DNA of 64,000 nt from a bacterium 336/3 (GTDB taxonomy: Bacteria > Bacteroidota > Bacteroidia > Cytophagales > Thermonemataceae): positions 2,308,586 through 2,372,585 of the forward strand of contig LJIE01000001.1 in NCBI GenBank assembly GCA_001281695.1. Direction: 5' to 3'. The notes beneath the pieces were generated by a model. That model did no database searches and was not told the DNA's origin. It saw nothing but the letters and a program-made list of their open reading frames with translations. Positions 18,255-25,623 of the stretch are shown here, in pieces. The position numbers were made by a program, and so were the translations under genes. Position 1 is the stretch's first letter. Each line of letters begins with the position of its first letter.

Positions 18255-19232
18255 ATGCGTAAAATATTTATTATTGCTTTGGGATTAGGTATAAGCCTGC
18301 AAACAAGCGTATTAGCTCAAAGAGGTTCTTTAGAAAGTGAAAGTGAAACCTATAATTTGGATATTTTAAAGGTAAAAATGAATGTGTCTGTGATAGATGC
18401 GGATAAAAAAACACCTTTAAAAGCTAAAATTGAGGTAAGAGATGTAGTTGAAAAGACAACAGTTCATGAAAGCCAGCCTGCTGATGGTAAGGCAGATTTT
18501 ACACTAAGACGTAATAAAGTTTATAACCTGCGTCTCTCAGCCCCTAAATTTGAGGATAGCCTGATTGTACTAGATTTAGCAAAAGATGTATCCACAGACC
18601 AAGTCATAGAATTAAATCCTAAAAGAAGTGTGATAGAAATCAATGTTTCGGATATGGAAACAGGAGATGGGTTGCCTTTTGGTGTTACACTTACAAACAA
18701 AAATAGAAATGAAGTGATTGTTTTAGACCCCAAAGATGGTAACAATGGTAAATATAAGGTTCGTTTACGTGATGATGATGAATATGAATTGGAAGTGAAA
18801 AACCCCAAAGAATATATTTTCTACTCCAATACAGTTTCTTCTAAAAAAACATCAAAATTAGCTGTAAAACTTCATACACTTACTGTTGGAGCTAAAATCC
18901 CTTTGTATAACATTACATTTGAGACAGCAAAATGGGACTTAAATGATAATTCTCAAAGAGAGTTAGACCGTATTGTAAAATTACTGAAAGATAACCCTAA
19001 AGCTCGTATTGAGATCGGAGCCCATACAGATGATAAAGGTTCAGCTTCATATAACTTACAACTTTCTCAAAAGAGAGCAAAATCTGTATTTAATTATTTA
19101 GTTACCAAAAAAATACCTGCTCAACGATTTGTAGCGAAAGGCTATGGGAAAGAGCGTCCTGTGGCTTCTAATGATACAGAAGAGGGAAGAGCAGCCAACA
19201 GACGTTTCGATTTGACTGTATTGAGTTTATAA
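18255..19232 (+). CDS. OmpA-family peptidoglycan-binding outer-membrane protein
   Basis: A 325-residue protein with signal peptide (MRKIFIIALGLGISLQTSVLAQ). Residues of about 38-205 form two repeated Ig-like/carboxypeptidase-regulatory-like units (VSVIDADKKTPLKAKIEVRD and INVSDMETGDGLPFGVTL). The C-terminal OmpA domain begins near 215 with YNITFETAKWDLNDNS and contains the peptidoglycan-binding block IGAHTDDKGSASYNLQLSQKR and the closing GRAANRRFDLTV. No N-terminal beta barrel is present, so it is probably periplasmic or peripherally attached and links envelope to peptidoglycan. It has a promoter and a terminator of its own. Confidence 0.88.
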   Translation: MRKIFIIALGLGISLQTSVLAQRGSLESESETYNLDILKVKMNVSVIDADKKTPLKAKIEVRDVVEKTTVHESQPADGKADFTLRRNKVYNLRLSAPKFEDSLIVLDLAKDVSTDQVIELNPKRSVIEINVSDMETGDGLPFGVTLTNKNRNEVIVLDPKDGNNGKYKVRLRDDDEYELEVKNPKEYIFYSNTVSSKKTSKLAVKLHTLTVGAKIPLYNITFETAKWDLNDNSQRELDRIVKLLKDNPKARIEIGAHTDDKGSASYNLQLSQKRAKSVFNYLVTKKIPAQRFVAKGYGKERPVASNDTEEGRAANRRFDLTVLSL

Positions 19233-19283: not shown

Positions 19284-20342
19284 TTATCTGGTGTTATAAC
19301 TAAAGCCTGTTCGTAAGCCAAATCCCGAAAGTTGGGTGCCCGACAAACCAATGCTTTGCACTGGTATCCTGTAATAAGGTTGTAGGTTTATTTGGCTATT
19401 TTTACTAATTTTTATATCGTAACTTACACCCAAATTGATAGAAGAAATACTCAATTCTGGGTTGTTATTGACTACATTTCCAATGGTTTCTTTGATTAAA
19501 AGAGTGTTAGAAACCCCACCACTCACAGCCACATTTTTCGCTACTTTTACTTTTGCTTCAAGAGGAATTTCAATCGTATTTAATTTTACTTTTACATCTG
19601 GATTAATAGAACTTGGTGATGAAAGAGTATTAATGGCGTTTACAGGCATATTAGATGACCAAGGAGTATAATTGATGCCTGATAAAACACTCACATTCTT
19701 TGAAAGAGCTACTTCATGTGTATAACCTAAACCTGCTTGTAAACCATTAGGACTGATAACAGGAGATAAAGCCACTCCAAAAGATTGACGTTTGCGTTTG
19801 TTTTTCTTAGATACTTGGTTGGCTACAAAGCTCGAATCAATCACAAATGCTTTTGCAGGTTTCAAATCCTTAGAAAAATCGTTATGAAAATATTTATCTT
19901 GAAATCTTCTATCAAAATTTATTGCAATAGTTTGCTCCTCTTTTTGAGATACAGGAACGATTAATTTTTTCTCAACAAAAGGTTTGATGATTTTTTTAGG
20001 CTCCTGATACACATAAGAATCATTTTTCTGTTCTTTTTGACGAGGAGAAACATCTGTTTTTTTCTCTGCTTTTTTCAAAAAATTTATACTATTTTCTGCA
20101 TATAACGGAATGTGGTTATCAACAGAATTGTTTGTATAAAGATAATACACCAAATAACCAAATAACCCTACTACAAAAACGGCTGCAATTTTATCCAATT
20201 GCCACCACCAAATAAAAGCTCTTTGACTATGGTCTTCTTTATCTAATTTTTTTTCTAAATCGTCCCATGCTTGCTCATCAAACTCTGGTTGTAGATGGGC
20301 AAGTTTATCTTTAACAAAATGATCTATTTCAAATTTCTTCAT
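19284..20342 (-). CDS. Candidate trans-envelope anti-sigma factor with C-terminal beta-barrel-like domain
   Basis: A 352-residue protein in three parts: a cytoplasmic N-terminus (1-50, acidic, with EQAWDDLEKKLDKED), one membrane helix (52-70, IAAVFVVGLFGYLVYYLY), a charged periplasmic linker (71-185) and a C-terminal part (186-352) of alternating strands like an eight-stranded outer-membrane barrel (FGVALSPVISPNGLQAGLGY to GFGLRTGFSYNTR). Its start overlaps the stop of the sigma gene by four bases (ATGA), the usual coupling of ECF sigma and anti-sigma genes. The layout resembles the dual membrane-spanning anti-sigma factors described in Bacteroides thetaiotaomicron. The anti-sigma role is inferred from context; the barrel topology has not been modelled. 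Confidence 0.75.
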   Translation of the reverse strand: MKKFEIDHFVKDKLAHLQPEFDEQAWDDLEKKLDKEDHSQRAFIWWWQLDKIAAVFVVGLFGYLVYYLYTNNSVDNHIPLYAENSINFLKKAEKKTDVSPRQKEQKNDSYVYQEPKKIIKPFVEKKLIVPVSQKEEQTIAINFDRRFQDKYFHNDFSKDLKPAKAFVIDSSFVANQVSKKNKRKRQSFGVALSPVISPNGLQAGLGYTHEVALSKNVSVLSGINYTPWSSNMPVNAINTLSSPSSINPDVKVKLNTIEIPLEAKVKVAKNVAVSGGVSNTLLIKETIGNVVNNNPELSISSINLGVSYDIKISKNSQINLQPYYRIPVQSIGLSGTQLSGFGLRTGFSYNTR

Positions 20343-20908
20343 GGTATTATCGCTTCAAAGTATATTTTTTTTTCTTCTAAAAGACGCTTTTGTAAAATTT
20401 GTCTGGCTTTATGTAAATTCGATTTTGAAGTTCCTACACTAATTTGTAATGTTTTTGAAATTTCATCGTGTGAGTATCCTTCTATGGCATATAAGTTAAA
20501 CACAGTTCTGTATGAGGGTGGGAGGGCTTGTACCAACTGCAAAATATCTTGTTCTGAAAGATGGTCGAGTGCCGAAGCCTCCACTTCTGTATTCATAGCT
20601 TCTTGATAATCTGCCGAATACAAAAAAGATTTATTTTTTCTTAGATAATCAATGGCTGTGTTGATGAGTATTCTACGTAACCACGCTTTAAAATTGAAAG
20701 GAGGAGATAGTAAATGAAGTTTATTAAAAACCTTTAAAAATGAATCATTTAAAATTTCTTGAGCTTCCTCCGAACTATTAGCATAACGCAAACAAATACT
20801 CATCGCATACGGAAAACAACCTTTATACAAGCCTTTTTGGCTTTGCCGGTCTTTTCGTATGCAACCTTCTATAAGTTCTAATAATTGAGGGTTTTCCTCT
20901 AAGTTCAT
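20339..20908 (-). CDS. ECF-type RNA polymerase sigma factor
   Basis: A 189-residue sigma-70 family protein with region 2 (AMSICLRYANSSEEAQEILNDSFLKVFNKL) and region 4 (LVQALPPSYRTVFNLYAIEGYSHDEISKTLQISVGTSKSNLHKAR) and no other domain, as in ECF sigma factors. It directs RNA polymerase to a small set of promoters once freed from its anti-sigma factor. The partner gene overlaps its last four bases. Divergent genes 131 bases away encode an LVIVD lipoprotein and a barrel-like protein, likely regulon members. The shared intergenic region contains an inverted repeat. Confidence 0.93.
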   Translation of the reverse strand: MNLEENPQLLELIEGCIRKDRQSQKGLYKGCFPYAMSICLRYANSSEEAQEILNDSFLKVFNKLHLLSPPFNFKAWLRRILINTAIDYLRKNKSFLYSADYQEAMNTEVEASALDHLSEQDILQLVQALPPSYRTVFNLYAIEGYSHDEISKTLQISVGTSKSNLHKARQILQKRLLEEKKIYFEAIIP

Positions 20909-20952
20909 AACACTTTTTAATATTCCTCCACAAAACGAATCAATTTACAAAA

Positions 20953-20991
20953 TGGTTGCCTCAAAAAAATAATTTTTTTTCAAAGCAACCA
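20953..20991. promoter_or_regulatory. Inverted repeat in the divergent region of the sigma locus
   Basis: TGGTTGC (20953-20959) and GCAACCA (20985-20991) are perfect complements around an A/T-rich centre that is itself partly self-complementary (AAAAAAT, ATTTTTT). It sits midway between the sigma gene and the LVIVD gene. It could be an operator or a transcript hairpin; no T tract supports termination. Confidence 0.45.
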
Positions 20992-21039
20992 AATGAATAT
21001 AACCTTGCGTTTTTGTGGCAAAACTAAAACTCAAAAACC

Positions 21040-22296
21040 ATGAAAAGAATTTTAATGATTTTAATTCCACTAGCCTTTTTTTGGAGTTGTAAAGACACCT
21101 GTAAACAAACTTACACTTATACTATTCCTGTACCTGTTTATTTGTCTAATGCAGATTATGAAAAAGAAAATGGGCGATGGAAAGAACCACAGCTCATATT
21201 ATCTACAGGAAAAATATTTGTAAGAGGGCAGTATATTTTGATAGTTGAAAAAGAAAAGGGTGTTCATTTTATAGATAATAGCAATAGCAATGCTCCTAAA
21301 AATATAGGATTCCTGCAAGTTTATGGAAATGCAGATATCGCTGTAAAAGGCAATACTTTGTATCTGGACAGCCACAGAGATTTGTTGTATTTTGATATTA
21401 CAGACATCAATAAACCTATAAAAATAGGTAAAAATGAAAATGTTTTTGAACACAAAAGATTAGCCTTTACAAATGGTATGCGAGATTCCATAGCTATTCG
21501 TTTTGAAACCAAACAAATAACCACTACAAGAAATTGTAGTGAGCCTCACATGATACCTTTTTTTGGCGGAACAGCAAATACAACCCTTTCATCATCTTCA
21601 AGTGGTGGGAGTCAAAATCAAGGGGGTTCTTCTGAAACTTCTTCAAGTGGAAATCAAAATCAGGCAGGTTCTATGGCTTCCTTTATTGCAGTAGGTAACT
21701 ATCTTTATACTGTTGAACCTGATAAAATGTATGTATTTGACATCTCAAATGGTCAAAAAACAACTTTAATCAACACCATAAAATTAGATTGGGGCGTAGA
21801 AACTGTATTTGCCTCTGATGGGAAACTGTTTTTAGGAACAATGACAGGTATGAGAATTTATAGCCTACAGACACCTATCAATCCTCAATTTTTGGGTGTT
21901 TTTGAGCATCCTATAGCCTGCGACCCTGTGGTGGTACAAAATAATTTGGCTTATGTTACCACTCGTTCAGGCAATATATGTGCAAATGCTCAGAATCAGT
22001 TGGATATCGTTTCAATTGCTGACCCACAAAATCCACAACTCATCAAAAGCTATGAAATGCAAAATCCACATGGATTGGCTGTAAAAGGTGATGATTTGAT
22101 TGTTTGTGAAGGGGCTTTTGGTTTCAAAAAATTTGATGTGAATGACCCTAAAAATATCATTTTACAAAAAAAGAACTCAGAACTTTATAGTTTTGATGTA
22201 ATTATGCTCCCTAACAGTTTCTTAATAGCCAGTCGTAGTGGAATATACCAGTATAATTATGATTTTCAATTGATTAGTCAAATTTCAAACCTTTAA
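21040..22296 (+). CDS. LVIVD-repeat surface lipoprotein
   Basis: A 418-residue lipoprotein with signal peptide and lipobox (PLAFFWSC, Cys17). The body is a beta-propeller-like array of LVIVD repeats, visible as GNADIAVKGNTLYLDSHRDL, LYTVEPDKMYVFDISN, VVVQNNLAYVTTRSGN and HGLAVKGDDLIVCEGAFGF. A low-complexity Ser/Gly/Asn/Gln insert at about 185-210 interrupts it. In Bacteroidota such proteins are commonly found beside ECF sigma and anti-sigma pairs, as here. The ligand is unknown; it may supply the surface input or be an output of the sigma system. The following gene starts 7 bases later. Confidence 0.85.
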   Translation: MKRILMILIPLAFFWSCKDTCKQTYTYTIPVPVYLSNADYEKENGRWKEPQLILSTGKIFVRGQYILIVEKEKGVHFIDNSNSNAPKNIGFLQVYGNADIAVKGNTLYLDSHRDLLYFDITDINKPIKIGKNENVFEHKRLAFTNGMRDSIAIRFETKQITTTRNCSEPHMIPFFGGTANTTLSSSSSGGSQNQGGSSETSSSGNQNQAGSMASFIAVGNYLYTVEPDKMYVFDISNGQKTTLINTIKLDWGVETVFASDGKLFLGTMTGMRIYSLQTPINPQFLGVFEHPIACDPVVVQNNLAYVTTRSGNICANAQNQLDIVSIADPQNPQLIKSYEMQNPHGLAVKGDDLIVCEGAFGFKKFDVNDPKNIILQKKNSELYSFDVIMLPNSFLIASRSGIYQYNYDFQLISQISNL

Positions 22297-22303
22297 AAAA
22301 AAT

Positions 22304-22858
22304 ATGAAAATTTTATTTGTTGCAATTTCAACATTATTTATTTCTCTACAGGCTTTTTCGCAAGATAGCCTCAAAAAACAAACAGAATATAAAAAAAGCC
22401 GATTTTGGCACAATTCCGAGACAGGTTTTTCGGTTGGGAATGCAAATTATTTCTCTAATGGGTTTCATTTTCAGACCATTAACGGTTTTCGGGTGTACAA
22501 AAACGCCTATTTAGGTCTTGCAACTGGCTTGGATATGTACAGAGATGCAACGTTATTGCCTGTGTTGCTACATGCTCGTTGGGATTTTTTGCCTGAAAAG
22601 CGAATAAGCCCTTATGTTGGAGTTTCAGGGGGTAGAACTTTCGGTTTGACACAAGTGGACAATATATATAGCCTCAAAGGTGGTCTTACAGGAGAAATTT
22701 CGACAGGTTTCAAAGTAAATAGAGGTAATGGTTCTGGCTATACTTTTAGCTTGGGTTATCGTTATCAGAAATTTCAAGAAAAATTGAATGTGCTTGGAGA
22801 AAGAACCACTGATTATAGTTTAAACAGATTTGTTATCAGAACAGGTTTCTTTTTCTAA
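22304..22858 (+). CDS. Outer-membrane beta-barrel-like protein
   Basis: A 184-residue protein with signal peptide (MKILFVAISTLFISLQAFSQ). The mature chain alternates short beta strands with polar turns (TGFSVGNANYFSNGFHFQT, VYKNAYLGLATGLDMY, RISPYVGVSGGRTFGL, GYTFSLGYRYQKF) and ends on an aromatic strand (NRFVIRTGFFF) with the terminal Phe typical of barrel proteins. It lies 7 bases after the LVIVD gene and is surely co-transcribed. Its strands resemble those of the C-terminal part of the anti-sigma candidate in style, though not clearly in sequence. Pore or binding function unknown. Confidence 0.7.
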   Translation: MKILFVAISTLFISLQAFSQDSLKKQTEYKKSRFWHNSETGFSVGNANYFSNGFHFQTINGFRVYKNAYLGLATGLDMYRDATLLPVLLHARWDFLPEKRISPYVGVSGGRTFGLTQVDNIYSLKGGLTGEISTGFKVNRGNGSGYTFSLGYRYQKFQEKLNVLGERTTDYSLNRFVIRTGFFF

Positions 22859-22967: not shown

Positions 22968-25448
22968 TTAATCTATAATAACTTTTTTTCTGATATTACC
23001 CTGATTAGTTTGTATTTCAATTATATACAAACCTTTTGGGGAGCCTTCAAGATGAAGAGATAAATTCTTTTCTTGGAGCATTTCAAATGTATTTAATGGA
23101 TATCCCAAAGCGTTTCGGACAATCACTTTAGAAACTTCAAAATTTGTTGTTTCTACATGAATAGTTCCTTTAGAAGGGTTAGGGAATACTCTTATAAAAT
23201 TCTCTAAAGCCTCATTTTCTATATTTGCAACAATAATAGATGCTACATTACTGAAAGGAGAAACTCCAAAATCGTTTCTTGCACGAACACGATAGTAGTA
23301 AGTCTGGTTTAAATTGACATCTTCATCCAAGCAATTGGTTGCATTTTCACCTAAAGTAGTCAGATTTTTAAAATTGTTGGTGGGTTCGGTAGATTTTTGA
23401 ACTTCAAAACGGGTTTCATTATTAGAATTATCAGTCCAATTAAGAATAGCTTTGGCGTTGTTATTTAAACTAGCACTAAGTTGAGTAGGAGCATTTGGAA
23501 TAGGCAATCCACCAACAGAATAAACAGAAATGGTACTACTTACTTCATTGGATACTACCAATAAAGGAATACCTGTGGGACTATCATTTGCTGAGATAAA
23601 AATAAGTCCTTCAGCTCCTAAATCGCCAGCACCTACAGTATTAGGATTTTTACTGTTGATATACTGAACAAATACTGGACTTGCTGGATTTGTTACATTA
23701 TACACCATAATACCTCCAATTCTCTCTAAAGAAACAAATGCATAAACTTTTCCATTGAGTGTGGCTGTTGCAACACCTTCAGGTTCAGGACCTTTGTTGT
23801 CGCTTCTATCTTTTGGTGTATTGTTATCGTGTCCAGCATTGAAAATAGCACCATAAGTAGTATTGCCAGCAATGATACGTTCAAATTGGTCTCCACTATC
23901 AAAAACTTTACTCATGCCATTGGCAGTGGGTTGCCAAATGCTATAAGAACGTGACCCATACACATGAATTTCATCAAAATCACCATCACCATCTGTATCA
24001 CCTGTACGATTAGAAACTTGCAAACGTCCTAAAATAGTATTGTTTTTAAGTAAGGAAGCATTTGGAAATGCTGTGGCATCTAATGTATATGAACCACTAC
24101 TTACACGAACTTCTTCATTGAAACCAGAGTAAGAGCGAGAATCACCTTCATTGGCTGTAACTAAATAAGTAGTTCCATTCACTACAAAACTTGCAACAGC
24201 ATCAGGCTGGTACATACCTTTTACAGGGAGATTAGCAATATTGATATCAATACCTTGGTCAGAAGCATCTAAACCATTATTCAGTTGATTATGGTCTGCA
24301 AGACCCAAAGGGCGAATAGCTGTAATAGTCTTGGTTGCTATGTCCAAAACAGCAATTGCATTGTTTTCCTGTAACGTAACATAAGCAGTTGCTCCATCAG
24401 CCGAAAATGTGATGTACTCTGGTTCTACATCTCTTGATACAGAAGCATTTAAACCATAAATACGAACACCTTGACTGCGTAATGTAGCCACTTGACTATC
24501 AAAAGTATTAAAATTGGCAGTTGTTACATTTGTCTGAGATAAATTAGCTATTCCACCCGATATATCAATGATACTCACAGAACCTTCAGGGTCGTTGGTA
24601 TATGCTGAATTAGGCTCACCTTCGTTGGCTGTAAGCACCAAATTCCCATTTGGGTTAAAAGTAATCATATCAGGCATTGCACCTACAGTTACTTGTTTTT
24701 GAAAAACGCCACTGCTATTCATAAATACTACACTGCCATTGGCTTGTGGGTCAGTATTTTCTATAGCCAAAGCTACAATGCCATTTCTTGCAGCTACGCT
24801 ATTAATGTTACCATAGGCACTAATATCTATTGTTGCAATGGGAGCAATGGCAGAAGGATTGCTCATATCTACAATATTTAGTTTTTTACCTAAAGAATTT
24901 GCAATGAACAAACGTTTATTTGAGGCATCATAAGCTGAAATTTCAGCAGAATTTGCAGGATTTGCACTAACATTTAGATAGCTGGATACAAAACTAAGTT
25001 GTATTTCATTATTGGCAACAGGAGCAGGGTTATAATCGTTATCATAAATAAGGATTTGTCTTGTGATTGTAGAACCTAAACTAATTCCTGATGAGGGGTT
25101 ATTAATTGTCAATATGGCTATTTCTGTACCCTCTAAACTTGTATCATTGTTTACCGTAAATGTTACTGTACCTGTTATAGAGCCATTAGGAATGGTAATA
25201 ACAGCATTGCTTAGAGTGTAATCAGAAGCAGTAATATTTGTACCTGAAATGGCTAAATCAAGCGTTTGGTCGCCTGTTACAGCAGATGATGCTGTGGCAG
25301 TAACGGTAATCATAGTAGAGGAAGCTTCTCTGCCTGATACACCACTTACCGAAAGGTTTACAGTTTGGCTAAAGGTTATTTGAGGAGTAAGACTCATCAG
25401 AATAAAACCTACAATAAAAATGTTGAATTGTTTGTAAATACGTTTCAT
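22968..25448 (-). CDS. Secreted choice-of-anchor I protein with Calx-beta, fibronectin III and T9SS sorting domain
   Basis: With the ATG at 25448 the protein has 826 residues and a signal peptide ending near TFSQT. Next come a Calx-beta-like domain (about 30-135), a large propeller-like choice-of-anchor I domain (about 145-640; LVLTANEGEPN, VEPEYITFSADGATAYVTLQ, DGDGDFDEIHVYG), a fibronectin type III domain (APTQLSAS to FSNVASI) and a C-terminal T9SS type A sorting domain (VFPNPSKGTIHVE, ending RKKVIID). It is exported across the outer membrane by type IX secretion and then attached or released. Related domains occur in phosphatase-like proteins, but activity is not shown. The longer frame from 25499 is rejected because the signal peptide begins at MKRIYKQ. 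Confidence 0.9.
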   Translation of the reverse strand: MKRIYKQFNIFIVGFILMSLTPQITFSQTVNLSVSGVSGREASSTMITVTATASSAVTGDQTLDLAISGTNITASDYTLSNAVITIPNGSITGTVTFTVNNDTSLEGTEIAILTINNPSSGISLGSTITRQILIYDNDYNPAPVANNEIQLSFVSSYLNVSANPANSAEISAYDASNKRLFIANSLGKKLNIVDMSNPSAIAPIATIDISAYGNINSVAARNGIVALAIENTDPQANGSVVFMNSSGVFQKQVTVGAMPDMITFNPNGNLVLTANEGEPNSAYTNDPEGSVSIIDISGGIANLSQTNVTTANFNTFDSQVATLRSQGVRIYGLNASVSRDVEPEYITFSADGATAYVTLQENNAIAVLDIATKTITAIRPLGLADHNQLNNGLDASDQGIDINIANLPVKGMYQPDAVASFVVNGTTYLVTANEGDSRSYSGFNEEVRVSSGSYTLDATAFPNASLLKNNTILGRLQVSNRTGDTDGDGDFDEIHVYGSRSYSIWQPTANGMSKVFDSGDQFERIIAGNTTYGAIFNAGHDNNTPKDRSDNKGPEPEGVATATLNGKVYAFVSLERIGGIMVYNVTNPASPVFVQYINSKNPNTVGAGDLGAEGLIFISANDSPTGIPLLVVSNEVSSTISVYSVGGLPIPNAPTQLSASLNNNAKAILNWTDNSNNETRFEVQKSTEPTNNFKNLTTLGENATNCLDEDVNLNQTYYYRVRARNDFGVSPFSNVASIIVANIENEALENFIRVFPNPSKGTIHVETTNFEVSKVIVRNALGYPLNTFEMLQEKNLSLHLEGSPKGLYIIEIQTNQGNIRKKVIID

Positions 25449-25623
25449 GTTGAAAGAATAAATGTCTATTTGTGTTAAAACTGCGTAAAGATATATCAAA
25501 GCAATTGTCCTACTCTTGTAAGTTCGATTAAGATTTGATTAAGAAAATATCAATTCTATATAAATAGATGAGATATATTTTTTATTTTTTCTTATTTTTG
25601 TTAAAACTTCAACTAATCATAAA

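Follow-up and report, generated by a model that had tools for sequence, protein, structure and literature searches.

A predicted dual membrane-spanning anti-sigma factor and a divergent LVIVD lipoprotein operon as its probable output in the Cytophagales bacterium 336/3

Introduction

In the FecI/FecR system, an ECF sigma factor and a membrane-bound anti-sigma factor act with a TonB-dependent receptor to carry an outer-membrane signal inward. A different plan has been published for the anti-sigma/ECF sigma systems Dma1/Das1 and Dma2/Das2 of Bacteroides thetaiotaomicron, in which the anti-sigma factor itself spans both membranes (PMC13088901). Dma1 and Dma2 combine an N-terminal sigma-binding domain with a membrane helix, a long disordered tether and a C-terminal barrel, and their genes adjoin an ECF sigma gene (PMC13088901). 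In EcfO/Reo of Bacteroides fragilis and Phocaeicola vulgatus, the anti-sigma factor also reaches from the cytoplasm to the outer membrane, and an outer-membrane stress signal has been proposed (PMC13114119; PMC9308784). Loss of the anti-sigma factor or an attack on the envelope turns on the sigma operon in Dma/Das and Reo/EcfO, and NigD genes are also switched on in the Dma1 and Reo systems (PMC13088901; PMC13114119; PMC9308784). The signals and effectors of such systems are poorly understood.

This report concerns a locus of similar plan in the bacterium 336/3, contained in a window of 64,000 nucleotides (the whole stretch of DNA that was analysed). Its anti-sigma protein shares with Dma1 and Dma2 the adjacent ECF sigma gene and, by prediction, the membrane helix, the long disordered tether and the C-terminal barrel, and is predicted to run from cytoplasm to outer membrane as in EcfO/Reo; the likeness to Dma1-3 and Reo is one of domain plan and published descriptions. 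Two N-terminal helices, presumed to bind sigma, stand where Dma1 and Dma2 have their sigma-binding domain. The adjacent sigma belongs to group ECF21 in the Dma family; the ECF sigma factor here matches TIGR02985 at 97.5 bits, below the cut-off of 126.4 (NCBIfam). The outputs differ: NigD1 for Dma1, the genes next to dma2 for Dma2 and a regulon with lipoprotein genes (nigD) for EcfO/Reo (PMC13114119; PMC9308784), compared with a predicted LVIVD lipoprotein and an OmpW-like barrel here. Unlike FecI/FecR, the locus has sensor and anti-sigma fused in one chain. No FecR domain was matched in the anti-sigma protein at E up to 1 (Pfam), and no TonB-dependent receptor was recognised among the open reading frames at 15.3-27.2 kb, six of whose proteins were scanned with Pfam. 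With the Dma/Reo precedent already published, the locus does not introduce a new mechanism.

The sigma gene and its predicted anti-sigma partner

The sigma operon lies on the minus strand and has the following features:

19284-20342, minus strand: Dma/Reo-type anti-sigma factor, 352 aa (AlphaFold2 domain plan; relatives adjoin sigma genes)
20208-20342, minus strand: N-terminal helices, residues 1-45, presumed sigma-binding part (AlphaFold2 helices 3-15 and 23-38)
20130-20204, minus strand: single membrane helix, residues 47-71 (AlphaFold2)
19788-20129, minus strand: disordered charged tether of about 115 residues, residues 72-185 (AlphaFold2 pLDDT about 40 over residues 71-179)
19290-19787, minus strand: C-terminal 8-stranded barrel, residues 186-351 (AlphaFold2, Foldseek, alignment)
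20339-20908, minus strand: ECF sigma factor, 189 aa (Sigma70_r2 2e-12, Sigma70_r4_2 2.3e-16; Pfam)

An earlier sequence-only reading had described four genes here, and all four open reading frames were found at the positions it gave. The ATGA overlap of the sigma and anti-sigma genes was likewise seen, the ATG of 19284-20342 and the stop codon TGA of 20339-20908 sharing these four letters. On the far side, the anti-sigma gene converges with a gene for an OmpA-family protein (18255-19232, plus strand).

The same reading had proposed a dual membrane-spanning plan, to which a soluble or periplasmic fold of residues 186-352 would run counter. In an AlphaFold2 model built on an alignment of 17 relatives, the plan is borne out by a predicted membrane helix, a tether disordered from about residue 72 to 182 and, because residues 186-351 come out as an 8-stranded barrel, an end of outer-membrane type. 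The pLDDT of the barrel is mostly 82-97, for the larger part above 90, and drops in a loop around 231-250; its best PDB matches (Foldseek) are OmpA, Ail, NspA and OmpX. P260, G276 and G342 are invariant in the barrel alignment of 17 full-length proteins, as are W26 and L33 of the N-terminal helices across 17 relatives. A single anti-sigma chain is predicted to extend from inside the cell as far as the outer membrane.

Could the C-terminal part instead be a periplasmic domain, which would make this an ordinary single-membrane anti-sigma factor? The protein has no significant Pfam or NCBIfam match and no hit to a Pfam barrel family, and its relatives include, besides long forms of 436-563 aa, a clade of short anti-sigmas (225-300 aa) that have no barrel. 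Against this stand the confident 8-stranded model, whose top structural matches are outer-membrane proteins, and the loci of the short forms themselves: at all nine that were read, a separate downstream gene encodes a product with a signal-peptide-like start, and the only one scanned (in G004) matches the barrel family OMP_b-brl_2. The periplasmic alternative is therefore extremely improbable.

Matches to the anti-sigma protein, mostly weak and N-terminal, were obtained in 27 of 292 genomes of the order (own genome counted). A sigma gene lies immediately upstream in the same orientation at 26 of the 28 loci found with the anti-sigma outside the window. A protein scan of genome contigs with the anti-sigma gave no confirmed relative. 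In the sigma phylogeny, the long barrel-fused and the short forms separate with a single exception (L018), and the window sigma falls on the long-form side. One anti-sigma (L030:1255-2937; L082:6153-7835) has an N-terminus with about three tandem copies of the presumed sigma-binding motif ahead of the membrane helix. Related Dma-type pairs adjoin YceI, DUF5777, Rieske, CHRD or cytochrome-like genes (L085, L099-L107), neighbours that hint at a connection with redox processes in the periplasm.

The divergent operon and the candidate twin promoters

The divergent operon and the two promoter-like elements in front of it and of the sigma gene are as follows:

20932-20959, minus strand: ECF-type promoter toward the sigma gene, GCAACC-N16-CGTTTT (GCAACC-N16-CGTTTTGTGG; motif match)
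20985-21013, plus strand: ECF-type promoter toward the LVIVD operon, GCAACC-N17-CGTTTT (GCAACC-N17-CGTTTTTGTGG; motif match)
21040-22296, plus strand: LVIVD/DUF5074 beta-propeller lipoprotein, 418 aa (LVIVD 2.3e-6, DUF5074 9.8e-7; Pfam)
22304-22858, plus strand: small 8-stranded OmpW-like outer-membrane barrel, 184 aa with signal peptide (AlphaFold2, PDB match)

The lipobox cysteine C17 of the LVIVD protein is invariant among 11 homologues, and the lipoprotein is presumably surface-exposed, as judged from its family. The titles and abstracts of published papers name no function for LVIVD proteins in Bacteroidota. The small barrel was modelled with a mean pLDDT of 89, and its best PDB match is OmpW (8.8e-8). 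The gene just past the barrel gene (22968-25499, minus strand) encodes a choice-of-anchor I protein that bears a sorting tail for type IX secretion. The own genome holds a second LVIVD system (L007:7482-8783, minus strand) with the propeller split over two adjacent open reading frames, both of which start like lipoproteins and are followed by a 208-aa barrel-like gene. A similar pattern of two open reading frames occurs in L072, L074, L076, L077, L079, L080 and L090.

The gap between the sigma and LVIVD genes is 131 bp long and carries the same ECF-type promoter on both sides. The twin elements were first spotted by eye and tested afterwards. In the window, the strict form has two matches against 0.00 expected. 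It has six in the 4.7-Mb genome (control 9), of which the twin pair are the only intergenic ones and the remaining four lie inside open reading frames. When the gap was shuffled 20000 times, CAACC-N16..18-GT[C/T] turned up on both strands in 5 cases. Of 26 related sigma genes, 19 have GCAACC upstream. Its distance from the annotated start is mostly 40-100 bases, and it is often found 16 bases ahead of CGT in the long forms or CATCT in the short forms.

Mirrored promoters toward a divergent gene recur in two related genomes, G030 and G184, where the neighbouring genes encode a small protein of secreted type and a glucose/sorbosone dehydrogenase. GCAACC-N16/17-CGTGATG has 3 and 4 matches in these genomes versus none in the control; the matches beyond the divergent pair lie inside open reading frames or are not start-proximal. 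Strict and relaxed searches of the own genome for more sigma targets gave matches that were not above control, as did a count allowing two mismatches. Apart from the twin pair, the matches inspected there lay within genes, save one that was a terminator-like hairpin, and no additional target was found.

Recurrence of the link in related genomes

A barrel gene follows the LVIVD gene in 75 of 80 named LVIVD loci, and 36 of the 80 have an ECF sigma gene within 4 kb. Five genomes carry 28-94 sigma genes each, so that linkage at about 6-12% of loci would be expected by chance. The genomes are related and hence not independent, and Dyadobacter accounts for most of the linked loci. A preliminary count that placed LVIVD genes never near a sigma gene (0/29, 1.5-kb flanks) was overturned by longer flanks. 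The linked sigma factors fall in separate clades, apart from the group of the window sigma. Among the gene orders are, in Dyadobacter and other genomes, sigma, anti-sigma, serpin or other genes, LVIVD and barrel and, in Saprospiraceae, LVIVD, barrel, sigma and anti-sigma. The intervening gene of L111 (2537-3769) encodes a serpin (Pfam 2.4e-106), and that of L138 (2264-3496) is serpin-like by eye. Eight of nine scanned LVIVD-linked anti-sigmas match OMP_b-brl or OMP_b-brl_2 at the C-terminus, mostly weakly, with two above the curated cut-off.

The promoter is also found beyond the window. CAACC-N15..18-GTC precedes the LVIVD gene at 35 of 80 loci, versus 1 of 80 on the reverse strand and 5 of 408 other genes. 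The spacing of CAACC and GT[C/T] before LVIVD genes is sharply peaked, with 30 loci at N17 and 0-4 at every other gap from 10 to 24. CAACC-N17-GTC lies before the linked sigma gene in L115, L121, L163 and L181, and in the last three before the LVIVD gene as well. The linked sigma genes of Dyadobacter are without the CAACC element, and their upstream region resembles by eye a TAnnTTTG housekeeping promoter. No such element was found upstream of the LVIVD paralogue of the own genome (L007).

These counts bear on whether the two gene pairs are chance neighbours, that is, a Dma-type pair that happens to adjoin an LVIVD/barrel operon unrelated to it, the promoters being alike by accident. The modules lie apart in most genomes, and the divergent layout was seen only here, both of which would fit mere juxtaposition. 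The rarity of twin promoters in the shuffled gap, the order-wide promoter with its N17 peak and the excess of linkage over expectation argue against it and make it highly unlikely. The sequence-only reading had described a self-contained four-gene locus, and in this it went too far: the sigma/anti-sigma and LVIVD/barrel pairs are separable modules, often apart, yet their link is recurrent.

Output or input?

The divergent LVIVD/barrel operon looks like a target of the sigma factor, judging from its promoter, and this is the new element of the locus. The sequence-only reading had left the operon as either surface input or regulated output. The twin promoters and the order-wide promoter before LVIVD genes favour output. 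This preference is strengthened because Pontibacter LVIVD loci carry the promoter without a linked sigma gene and because Dma-type pairs elsewhere lie beside different genes, such as those for YceI, DUF5777 and Rieske proteins.

Were the operon an input, the LVIVD lipoprotein and the small barrel would form a receptor complex at the surface that binds the anti-sigma barrel and triggers or restrains it, perhaps being output too in a feedback loop. Linkage to Dma-like pairs does recur across separate sigma clades, and a lipoprotein of propeller fold might have a ligand or a second barrel as its binding partner. An ECF-type promoter at sigma-less loci such as those of Pontibacter is what would be expected of a target, however, and an LVIVD gene is missing from the neighbourhood of many related pairs; the input role is unlikely. 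Another idea, also of low probability, is that the LVIVD propeller lipoprotein and OmpW-like barrel are a transferable cassette, both output and signal partner of Dma-type systems. Different sigma clades would have picked it up on several occasions and adapted its promoter to the new partner each time.

The best reading, held at a probability of roughly 0.7, is a Dma-type envelope-stress switch with the LVIVD/barrel operon as its output. Counting against it are the majority of LVIVD loci, which have no sigma gene within 4 kb, the absence of the element from the LVIVD paralogue of the own genome and from the linked sigma genes of Dyadobacter, and the failure to find further targets in this genome. 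At rest, the sigma factor would be kept at the inner membrane by the N-terminal helices of the anti-sigma protein. The anti-sigma chain would continue across the periplasm as a disordered tether and form its 8-stranded barrel in the outer membrane. Damage, failed barrel insertion or a ligand, sensed as a disturbance at the outer membrane, would free the sigma factor. The freed sigma would then transcribe the operon it belongs to and also, through the mirrored promoter, the divergent one, whose LVIVD propeller lipoprotein and OmpW-like barrel would be delivered to the outer envelope.

Conclusion

The locus takes the dual membrane-spanning plan, known from gut Bacteroides, to another order and offers a candidate promoter for the Dma-type plan. 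It also names a widespread, uncharacterised outer-envelope module as a probable output. Such switches are repeatedly paired with the LVIVD/barrel module and probably turn it on in this genome, and the dependence of this module on the sigma factor therefore becomes testable.
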